From NCBI GenBank assembly GCA_903850915.1, contig CAINMV010000037.1, positions 62,001 through 126,000 on the forward strand: a stretch of DNA of 64,000 nt, given 5' to 3'. This DNA comes from an uncultured Bacteroidota bacterium. GTDB taxonomy: Bacteria > Bacteroidota > Bacteroidia > UKL13-3. The notes under the pieces are model-generated. The model made no database searches. It worked only from the letters and a program-made list of their open reading frames with translations, and was not told where the DNA came from. Both the position numbers and the translations under genes were made by a program. How positions within the stretch are numbered: position 1 is the first letter of the stretch; every line of letters begins with the position of its first letter. Below, in pieces: positions 6,402 to 39,601 of this stretch.

Positions 6402-7484
6402 ATGAAATATTATATTATAGCTGGAGAAGCAAGTGGAGATTTGCATGGGAGTAACCTAATCAAACAGCTTAAATTAAAAGATGCACAAGCCGAATTCAGA
6501 GGCTGGGGGGGCGATGCCATCCAGGCCGCCGGAACCACACTGGTTAAGCATTACAAAGAGCTGGCTTTTATGGGATTCACCGAAGTACTGATGAATATCC
6601 GCACCATCCTCAATAATATTTTCTTTTGCAAACAAGATATCACCGATTATAAACCTGATGTATTAATCCTAATCGATTACCCAGGATTTAACCTACGAAT
6701 TGCCCAGTGGGCAAAGAGGCAAGGGATTAAAGTTGTTTATTATATTTCGCCACAGGTATGGGCATGGAAAGAAAACCGAGTTAAAAAAATTCGCGATTGT
6801 GTTGATTTGATGCTCGTAATCTTGCCTTTCGAAAAAGCGTTTTATAAAAAGTGGAACTTCGATGTTACCTATGTGGGGCATCCTTTGCTCGATGCTTTGA
6901 AGGATATTCCGGTAACAAATTTACAATATAAAAAACCGGTAATAGCATTGTTGCCAGGTAGCAGGAAGCAAGAAATAAAAGCATTATTACCAATAATGTT
7001 GGAGGTGATTCCTAATTTTCCAGAATACGAATTTGTTATTGCTCAGGCGCCCTCACAACCTGATAGTTTATATGATGAAATTATTGGAAAGATTAAAGTA
7101 AGTAGATTGAAAAATAACACCTATAGCCTCCTCCAAGTTTCATATGCAGCGCTCGTAACAAGTGGCACAGCAACACTTGAAACAGCACTCTTCAAAGTGC
7201 CACAGGTGGTTTGTTATAAAGCAGGAACACTTTCTTATGCAATTGCAAAACAGCTTGTAAAAATAAAATATATCAGTTTGGTAAATTTAATTCTTAATAA
7301 ACCAGCTGTGACAGAATTAATACAAAACGATTTAAATGCTAATCAAATAAAAAAAGAACTAACCTTGGTTTTAAATACAAAAAGAGCTGCCATTCTTACT
7401 GATTATTCTCAACTCATTGAAACCTTGGGGAACAGTGGTGCATCGGAAAAAGCAGCATCAGCAATTACTGAAAAGTATTTATAA
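6402..7484 (+). CDS. lpxB: Lipid-A-disaccharide synthase
   Basis: LpxB joins UDP-diacylglucosamine and lipid X to form the lipid A disaccharide at the inner membrane. In 360 residues it shows the opening [22 protein letters not shown], the [12 protein letters not shown] segment, [52 protein letters not shown] and a C-terminal [10 protein letters not shown], all classic LpxB blocks. Length is slightly below the usual 380. It starts at the ATG after a good promoter and ends directly against the stop of the convergent DinB-like gene, with no spacer. Confidence 0.97.
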
Positions 7485-36355: not shown

Positions 36356-36495
36356 GTTGTCGTGCTTTTTAAAAGTTCCTTTTGCTATCTTATCTCTTCC
36401 TCGTTAAGCCCTTCATTAAGGATCTTTCTTTTTTATAATTCTAGTCTGATTTCTGTTTAAGAGGTCATCAGTGTATTTATTGCAACCATTTTATA

Positions 36496-36503
36496 TATAT
36501 TTG
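36496..36503 (+). promoter_or_regulatory. -7 box TATATTTG upstream of the large T9SS gene
   Basis: TATATTTG matches TAnnTTTG, ending 19 nt before the GTG at 36523 that would begin the signal peptide. It supports initiation at 36523 rather than at the ATG at 36653. Confidence 0.5.
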
Positions 36504-36522
36504 TACTAGTACATATACACGC

Positions 36523-39500
36523 GTGGGGCTCATTTATATACAACGTAATGTTACTACTTTACTAGTGGTGTTTTTTTGCTATTTCTCAGCCCAAGCCCAA
36601 AAAAAAAATCCTTCGGCCTCACCCTTCGTCAGATCTTTCTTTTGTAAAAAATATGGGGCAATGGCAGGCCCCGTTTTTATTTAAAGCAACGGTGCCAAAT
36701 GGTGCCATTTTTCTTGAGAAAAGTGGTATCACGTATAACTTCGTTGATGATGAAAGCCGACACCAGCTTCATAATTTGATGCATCGTCATTTTGTAGATT
36801 CGTCAAATATGCCCTTTTCCATTAAGCTGCATGCATTAAAAATGCAATTCAAAAACTGTAATTCAGAATTGAAAATAAAGGAAGAAGAGATGTTAGCTAC
36901 TTATCATAATTATTATCTTGGAAGCGATCCAAGAATATGGCAAAATAGGGTGCCCCTTTTTAATAAGATTGTCTATCACGAAGTTTATAATGGCATTGAT
37001 TATGAGGTTTTTACGGCTGGACGATCTTTTAAATATAATTTTATCGTAAATCCTAATGCCGACTATAATCAAATTGTCATGCAGTACGATCAAGGGTTAT
37101 TGTCATTAGATGATGGTAAGCTACGCATTAAAACAGAGGTTAACGAAATGTTGGAGGCCGCACCTTATGCCTATCAAATAATTAATGGTGCGAACATTAA
37201 AATTCAATGTTCTTTTGCATTAAATGGAAATGAAGTAAGTTTTCGAGTTGGAGAATTCAATCAGAATTATACTTTAATTATTGACCCAACAATAATTTTT
37301 GCGACATATTCTGGAAGTACCGTCGACAACTTTGGATTCACGGCTTCATTTGACAGTGAAGAGCATCTTTTTTGTGCTGGCATTTGCGAATCCATCGGAT
37401 ACCCTGTTAGTTCAGGTGCGTTTCAATCGACGTTCCAAGGTGGCAGTGCTAGGAATATTTTTAAGGGTGTCGACAACCCCCCTATTGGCTGGGATATCTC
37501 GATAAGTAAATATGATTCAAGTGGCGCAAAAGTACTTTATGCGACCTACTTAGGTGGAAAAGAAAACGAATACCCACACAGCCTTTTAGTTGACAATAGT
37601 GATAATCTCGTGGTTTTAGGAAGCACCTTCTCCAATAACTTTCCGCATACAAGTAACGCCTTCGATACTGTTTTAAATAGAAATGGCGACACCATAAGTA
37701 CGGATATGTTTATTACTCGGTTTGATGGCGCAGGAAAGCTCGTAGCGTCCACTTTTATTGGTGGTGATGACTATGATGGCAACAATATGGGAGGTAGCTT
37801 ACAATATAACTATGCTGATGAATTTCGGGGAGATATTATTAACGATAATAACAATAACTACTATATTGGATCGGTTACAGCATCAGCAAATTTCCCAATG
37901 AAAAATGCGCTGCAAGGAACCAAAAAAAATGGTCATGATGGAGTTGTTTTTAAAATAGACTCAACGTTAAGTAATCTTTATTGGAGTACCTTTTTGGGTG
38001 GCGACGCTGACGATGCTATTTATTCAATCGACCTCGATAAATCGTTAAACGTTTATGTGGCAGGAGGCACCATGAGTAATAACTTCCCAACTACATCAGG
38101 AGCCTATCAAAAAAACAAAACAGCCTCAGGTGATGCAGATGGTGTAATCGCAAAGTTCTCAAACAATGGGCAACTTTTAATTGGAAGTACCTATGTGGGA
38201 ACGTCTGGGTACGATCAAGTGTATTTTTTAGAAATTGATAAGGATGGAAATATTTTCGCCACCGGACAAACTGAAGGCGCATTTCCAGTGAGCAGTGGGC
38301 TTTACTCAAAGTCTAATGGCTCTCAATTTATCATTAAACTAGATGGAGATTTAAGAACATATATACTCTCTACTACTTTTGGTAGTGGTCGTTTAAACAG
38401 CAGCGGAAGGCCCAATCCAGACATTTCGCCTACGGCCTTCTTAGTTGACAACTGTGATTTAATTTATGTCTGTGGCTGGGGAAGTAACCTCGGAATGAAC
38501 CACCTTGGCTCTACCAAGGACATGCTCGTATCAAGCACAACACCACCATTATACACTACCACCGACAACAATGATTTTTATATCATCGTTTTTAATAAAG
38601 ATTGCCAGAATGTTAAATTCAATACCTACTTCGGTGAGAATGGAGACGTAGATCATGTTGATGGTGGTACCAACAGATTTGATAAACGTGGAATTATTTA
38701 TGCTTCTGTTTGTGCCAGCTGCTATGCCACTGGATCCGGATTTCCAACCCAACCACCAGGTGTAGCCTATCCTTCCAATCTTTCCCCACGTTGTTCTAAT
38801 GCTTCATTTAAGATAGATTTTCAACTTCAAACTTCTATAATTGCAGCCTTCCGCCCTAGCCCACGTATTGCCTGTGTTCCACAAATGGTAACCATGAATA
38901 ATAAAAGTAATGCATCACATGTTTTTTGGGATTTTGGAGATGGTAAAACAGATACAGTCTATGATCCAAAACACTTATATTTAAAAGCTGGAAACTATAA
39001 AATCAGACTTATTTGTGAAGATACAAGCACTTGCAATCACTACGATACCATCTATGATGAAATAAATCTGTACGATCAGGCAGTAGCCGATTTTAGTTAT
39101 GAGATATCATATTGCGAAAGCAGTGTTACCTTAAAAAAGCAAAGTAAAAATCAAATTAACTTTTTATGGGATTTTGGTGATGGAAAAATGGATAGCACCA
39201 CCGATAATCCGAAACATGTTTACGCGCAAAGCGGAAAATACAATCTTACATTATATATTAATAAAGGTTTAAATTGCTCTGATAGCATCACTAAAACAAT
39301 CGACTTCGATAAATATAAACCTACATCTCCTATAATCCCAAATGTATTTACACCCAATGGTGATGGGCAAAATGACGTATTTGAAATTGGAGGTGTAAAT
39401 CCAAAATGTGACTCAATTGAAATAAAGGTATACAATAGATGGGGGCTACTTGTTTTTGAATCGAAGGAAATCGGGAACTGGTGGACTGGCAAGGATAGAA

Positions 39501-39601
39501 ATAAATTATTTCCTGATGGCATCTACTATTTTACTCTTAAAGTTACCGATTACAAAGGCAATATAAGTCAACGAAAAGGCGATATCACCCTTGTCCGTTA
39601 A
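36523..39601 (+). CDS. Giant T9SS surface protein: SBBP repeats, two PKD domains, type B sorting domain; frame broken in A10
   Basis: The body (ATG 36653, 982 codons) has an N-terminal region starting SFVKNMGQW (family motif ENKGQW), an SBBP-type beta-propeller (DMFITRFDGAGKLVAST, GGDADDAIYSIDLDKSLNVYV), two PKD domains (VFWDFGDGKTD, FLWDFGDGKMD) and a gliding-motility-type type B sorting domain (VFTPNGDGQNDVFE, YNRWGLLVFES, FPDGIYYFTLK). A typical signal peptide (GTG 36523; YFSAQAQ before the cut) lies upstream in another frame. The frames meet in a run of ten A (36599-36608); nine A would join them. Without the join the protein has no signal peptide although it needs Sec export. Sequencing error, phase variation or slippage are all possible. 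Confidence 0.8.

Follow-up and report, generated by a model that had tools for sequence, protein, structure and literature searches.

Our analysis indicates that a signal peptide and a 982-codon body, which as sequenced lie in different reading frames, almost certainly belong to one and the same gene, whose two halves meet at a run of ten A (A10) in the window, the whole 64,000-nucleotide stretch of DNA that was analysed. The account we favour, and to which we give an even chance, sees ordinary slippage during replication as having added one A to the unstable tract of a single gene for an exported protein, which would make the break a leaky and revertible lesion and the tract an incidental one of the contingency type rather than a dedicated switch.

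Signal peptide, A10 tract and body

Read from the GTG at 36523, the DNA encodes VGLIYIQRNVTTLLVVFFCYFSAQAQKKNPSASPFVRSFFCKKYGAMAGPVFI, a product of 53 aa that ends at a stop (36682-36684) about 27 codons past the start of the A10 tract (36599-36608), while the +1 frame reads ...KKKILRPHPSSDLSFVKNMGQW and then runs for 982 codons to its stop at 39601, with a TAG at about 36563 as its upstream limit. The two frames differ by 1 mod 3, and one A fewer or two A more would unite them in a fused product of about 1,025 aa. A sequence-only reading of this DNA had let the two frames meet at this tract and proposed that nine A would fuse them, and it was right in coordinates and frames alike; its 'giant' protein, however, shrinks to the length just given. 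The parts of the locus are as follows.

36480..36503, + strand: promoter-like block TTGCAACCATTTT...TATATTTG, with TGCAACCATTTT and TATATTTGT unchanged in 4/4 relatives of the genus
36496-36503, + strand: TATATTTG, which from general knowledge of Bacteroidota promoters we take to be a -7 box of the TAnnTTTG type; within the block identical in 4/4 relatives
36523..36600, + strand: signal-peptide-like coding part predicted from the translation, with GTG start, VGLIYIQRNVTTLLVVFFCYFSAQAQ and the end FSAQAQ
36599..36608, + strand: A10 tract and site of the frame break; one-base alignment gap in 4/4 relatives
36523..36684, + strand: short product with A10 read as is, 53 codons and then the stop at 36682-36684
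36609..36652, + strand: body-frame linker ILRPHPSSDLSFVKN, 5' of the first ATG; conserved as KKxxRPHPSSxLSFVKNxGQW in all relatives
36653..39601, + strand: body ORF as mechanically listed, 982 codons, opening with an ATG that cannot be taken for the ancestral start (ATT in 2/4 relatives)
36656..37291, + strand: DUF7948 domain (PF25778, E 5e-65)
37982..38089, + strand: SBBP beta-propeller repeat (PF06739, E 9e-11)
39131..39301, + strand: PKD domain (PF18911, the better of two stretches)
39335..39577, + strand: CHU_C / T9SS type B sorting domain (PF13585, E 8e-22; TIGR04131, E 2e-15)

The C-terminal type B sorting domain scores well above threshold (PF13585 77.6 bits, cut-off 27; TIGR04131 56.8 bits, cut-off 35). 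The in-frame N-terminal Sec signal peptide that goes with a T9SS type B protein is found in all four orthologs, and in the window gene as sequenced it lies in the other frame. As in contingency genes, a simple repeat, here the A10 between signal peptide and body, sets the frame by its length. The stretch 39131-39601 also resembles the grappling hook protein GhpA of Aureispira (PDB 9flp, E 1e-28, family profile), a match that is strongest over the PKD and sorting-domain region.

For comparison within the genus we used four other genomes (G001-G004, the present one being G000), each with one ortholog of 58-68% amino-acid identity to the window protein (n=4); that of G002 is truncated by a contig end. 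Signal peptide and body share one frame in all four, and the claim of the sequence-only reading that they form one gene is borne out, since the tract alone separates them in the window. In a five-way DNA alignment, promoter block, start codon, the KKxxRPHPSSxLSFVKNxGQW motif and body are all in register, and a single-base gap appears in 4/4 relatives precisely at the tract, which in the orthologs is A4GA3 (AAAAGAAA; G004 and G002), A6 (G003) or A7 (G001). The start column holds GTG or ATG in all relatives, which also retain the hydrophobic core and AQ end of the signal peptide and have in common the linker AQKKxxRPHPSSxLSFVKNxGQW. The linker of the window gene, with RPHPSSDLSFVK, is in the body frame, and the motif SFVKNMGQW had earlier been recognized 5' of the first ATG. 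With promoter block, start site and linker all shared with the orthologs, the break can be placed in the tract itself, and the alignments establish, for genes compared at the DNA and predicted-protein level, both the unity of the gene and the place where it is broken.

In the wider family, a hydrophobic export segment is in frame in 75 of the 76 loci with a testable 5' end, the remaining locus being borderline, and the same applies to those genus paralogs that could be parsed. On these grounds we rejected the idea that the family as a whole has a poly(A) where the signal peptide ends. DUF7948 genes number two in G000 and six or seven in each of the four sisters, with tandem copies on one G003 contig (C62). 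A search on DUF7948 found no paper in the literature collection that was consulted, and no copies of the gene were found in viral contigs.

Rarity of the break and the count of the tract

The genome of this lake Bacteroidota (2.94 Mb in 37 contigs, 99.65% complete) is the sole one of its species examined. Runs of at least ten A are strongly depleted in it: on both strands together there are 18 distinct ones as opposed to about 230 by a rough first-order estimate extrapolated from the window, a shortage that fits with selection against such slippery sequences (PMC1088944). The other 17 distinct tracts are intergenic, at gene ends or in frame, and none splits a gene. Among the approximately 23 CHU_C genes of the genome, the export or membrane segment is in frame in 22/22 others (T9SS type B) whose 5' end is not cut by a contig, and none of the 22 has a long run of A where the signal peptide ends, which leaves the window gene as the one split case of the 23 T9SS type B genes whose 5' end could be tested. 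In the window itself, comparison with the proteins of two syntenic relative contigs (about 17,500 aligned residues) revealed no other frameshifted gene; the single other split reported there concerns a 103-aa ORF without identified function rather than a known gene. Because other tracts, CHU_C genes and window genes are unsplit, the frame break is, by this comparison, a single and lineage-specific one confined to the homopolymer, and the location of the one-base difference exactly in the tract, together with its uniqueness among 23 genes, argues for more than chance. A generally indel-prone assembly was rejected for the window by the relative-protein comparison, and a genome-wide scheme of poly(A) phase variation was rejected because the 17 other tracts split no gene and the remaining genes of the T9SS type B class are intact. 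The G7 tracts of the window, at 6505 and 47826, sit inside open frames and show nothing unusual; judging from its translation, we take the gene that holds the first to resemble lpxB.

Homopolymers of ten are the commonest spot for indel errors, and a miscount in sequencing or assembly, with a true tract in frame and an ordinary intact T9SS substrate, is the first alternative to slippage in the cell. It would fit with a break seen in just one of five genus genomes, with related records that are metagenome bins and with a body that is wholly intact. Yet the window shows no further frameshifted gene over the residues aligned with relatives, other A10 tracts of the genome such as that of dnaX are in frame, and the dnaX tract was called exactly A10 in 27/30 related assemblies, from which it follows that A10 is generally countable in such data. 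So to us a miscount is possible but somewhat doubtful, and we infer that A10 is probably the true genomic count.

Constraint on the body and probable exchange of its exposed part

The body carries no further lesion in its 982 codons, and pN of 0.20 vs pS of 0.75 against the nearest ortholog (synonymous sites being saturated) shows, at the level of codon comparison, that it is under strong constraint. The T9SS core protein SprA, the only component sought in the genome search, is encoded in one intact frame (2386 bits). Taken together, an intact, constrained body and the presence of SprA mean that the break is young, or softened by slippage, or not real. A fixed loss of function, which would make the gene a young pseudogene in this species, could account for a frame-breaking insertion some 26 codons past the start and would suit the low number of DUF7948 genes (2 vs 6-7 in the sisters), as loss of family members may be ongoing. 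We nonetheless hold it to be unlikely in the face of 982 strongly constrained codons without a second lesion, an intact promoter block and a homopolymer break that is easily reverted.

Between the sister genomes G004 and G002, DNA identity is about 94-97% for some 28 kb, through the signal peptide of the gene, and their adjacent RNase Y-like proteins are 99.8% identical. Over the exposed body, protein identity between the two falls to 62% and comes back to 89% near the sorting domain (L003 1501-4431 compared with L006 1501-4359, the orthologs of window 36653-39601). Nearest to the window body is that of G004 (68%), while the body of G002 is nearest to those of G003 and G001 (74-75%). The most fitting reading of these identities is that recombination replaced the exposed module, with allele classes that cross species relationships. 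Although the G002 contig ends there, identity recovers at the C-terminus, which speaks against a simple contig chimera.

Slippage at A10 and its possible consequences

An A10 of a different standing is present in dnaX of the same genome (G000:C4:99907-101739), in frame at the junction of the gamma part with the tau extension (L034 1501-1510). This tract is A10 in 5/5 genus genomes although the sequence downstream varies, and among 30 Bacteroidia dnaX loci from family and class (L235-L268) it is A10 in 27 and A9 in two, a breadth that may be new. The dnaX tracts occupy each of the three codon phases, the other frames meet stop codons shortly downstream of the tract, and in 6/30 loci the tau extension is in a different frame, where tau would need slippage. 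In this lineage A10 thus appears to be an established site of slippage. Consistent with this, RNA polymerase slips on published poly(A) tracts of 9-11 (PMC1088944, PMC4256274, PMC5009743), as in Thermus dnaX with its A9 (PMC1088944), and a two-ORF dnaX with ten A is on record (PMC3711429). Slippage is about 20-25% at the A11 of tssM (PMC4256274), and in endosymbionts poly(A) slippage restores 12-50% of transcripts (PMC5009743). By analogy with dnaX, it is plausible that the host RNA polymerase yields length variants at A10, and the T9SS gene as sequenced would then be leaky rather than silent. In vivo, the products of slippage on record are for the most part insertions. The leak may be small, since the direction needed (one A fewer or two more) was less favoured in vivo in E. 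coli reporter work, where deletion slippage went undetected on the poly(A) runs examined (PMC6260861); deletion predominance at A11 in vitro is cited within the same paper. Ribosomal -1 frameshifting at A AAA AAN was rejected, as its direction would be wrong for the body frame.

The slippage account that we favour may therefore be put in these terms. The locus would be a single gene for a Sec- and T9SS-exported surface protein of about 1,025 aa with DUF7948, beta-propeller and PKD parts, whose lysine codons at the boundary of signal peptide and mature protein presumably became a long pure A run in this species. In the sequenced population the tract would be one A too long for the frame, most likely through replication slippage, and most transcripts with A10 would give the 53-aa export stub. 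Through RNA polymerase slippage at A10, part of the mRNA should still have a tract of different length and code for the exported protein, and the tract could revert by slippage during replication. We infer both leakiness and reversibility from the nature of the tract.

Judged by analogy, inlA of Listeria monocytogenes (PMC2831843) is the nearest known match. Its 5' poly(A), in a surface-protein gene too, flips the frame on a change in length, a one-base change leads to a very short product, and an interrupted tract is stable; in sister lineages the A run is broken by a G (AAGAAAA in inlA, A4GA3 in two relatives of the window gene). It differs in its A6/A7 tract as opposed to A10, in phylum and secretion route, and in that length variants and reversion were measured in strains, whereas the window gene is known from one assembly. 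The nearest match at the RNA level is tssM1 of Citrobacter rodentium (PMC4256274), where a poly(A) of similar length (A11) lies just before a premature stop and a longer product is in the other frame; there, however, slippage was measured (20-25%, with 10-15 A in transcripts), both products are needed and the shift adds A, while the window gene needs a net loss of one (or a gain of two). The tau/gamma system of dnaX (Thermus A9, PMC1088944; ten-A two-ORF, PMC3711429) shares the A10 sequence found in G000 and across Bacteroidia, but its tract, unlike that of the window gene, is conserved at the DNA level. Insect endosymbiont genes rescued at poly(A) (PMC5009743) are alike in an indel in a long A run, an otherwise intact gene and an AT-rich genome, yet their rescue was demonstrated on transcripts, whereas the window gene belongs to a 2.94 Mb genome and is known from DNA alone.

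Might the tract be a working switch, slippage in DNA and RNA keeping the export of a rapidly exchanged surface protein low or mosaic? We regard this as improbable, and a dedicated form, in which selection holds A10 for programmed transcriptional slippage or phase variation and export of the protein is limited to part of the cells or transcripts, as very improbable. Such a device would make sense of a surface-exposed product, of body alleles swapped between sister species, which suggests pressure for variation, of the 5' position of the tract, which inlA shares, and of the slippery precedent in dnaX of the same genome. But while the dnaX tract is conserved (5/5 of the genus), that of the T9SS gene is conserved in 0/4 relatives and so is without the mark of a selected slippery site; nor do other T9SS type B genes have such a tract, or any other run of at least ten A a like arrangement. 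Sites of programmed realignment keep their slippery tract across orthologs, and a run that is A4GA3 twice, A6 and A7 in the relatives, hence species-specific, is not a programmed conserved site. Phase variation as an evolved switch is unlikely because the tract is not conserved.

Scarcely credible, finally, is translation of the body alone from the ATG that is indeed present at 36653, non-exported or exported otherwise, since the conserved SFVKN residues lie upstream of that ATG, the C-terminal T9SS sorting domain requires prior Sec export, and relatives, in which the sequence-only reading had considered a start at this place, all read through from the signal peptide and have ATT there in two of four, so that 36653 was rejected as ancestral start.

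Should the tract have been miscounted, the gene would be an example of how one base can hide the export signal of a T9SS substrate. If A10 is real, it would offer a natural test of the tolerance of an AT-rich Bacteroidota for broken frames at slippery tracts; a 982-aa protein lacking an export signal would come out of gene prediction, and yet the cell may export the protein. The gene would then also become a candidate for varying surface display, the exposed part of its product being swapped among sister species, and, if the switch reading were true, a homopolymer-controlled T9SS substrate in a lake Bacteroidota.
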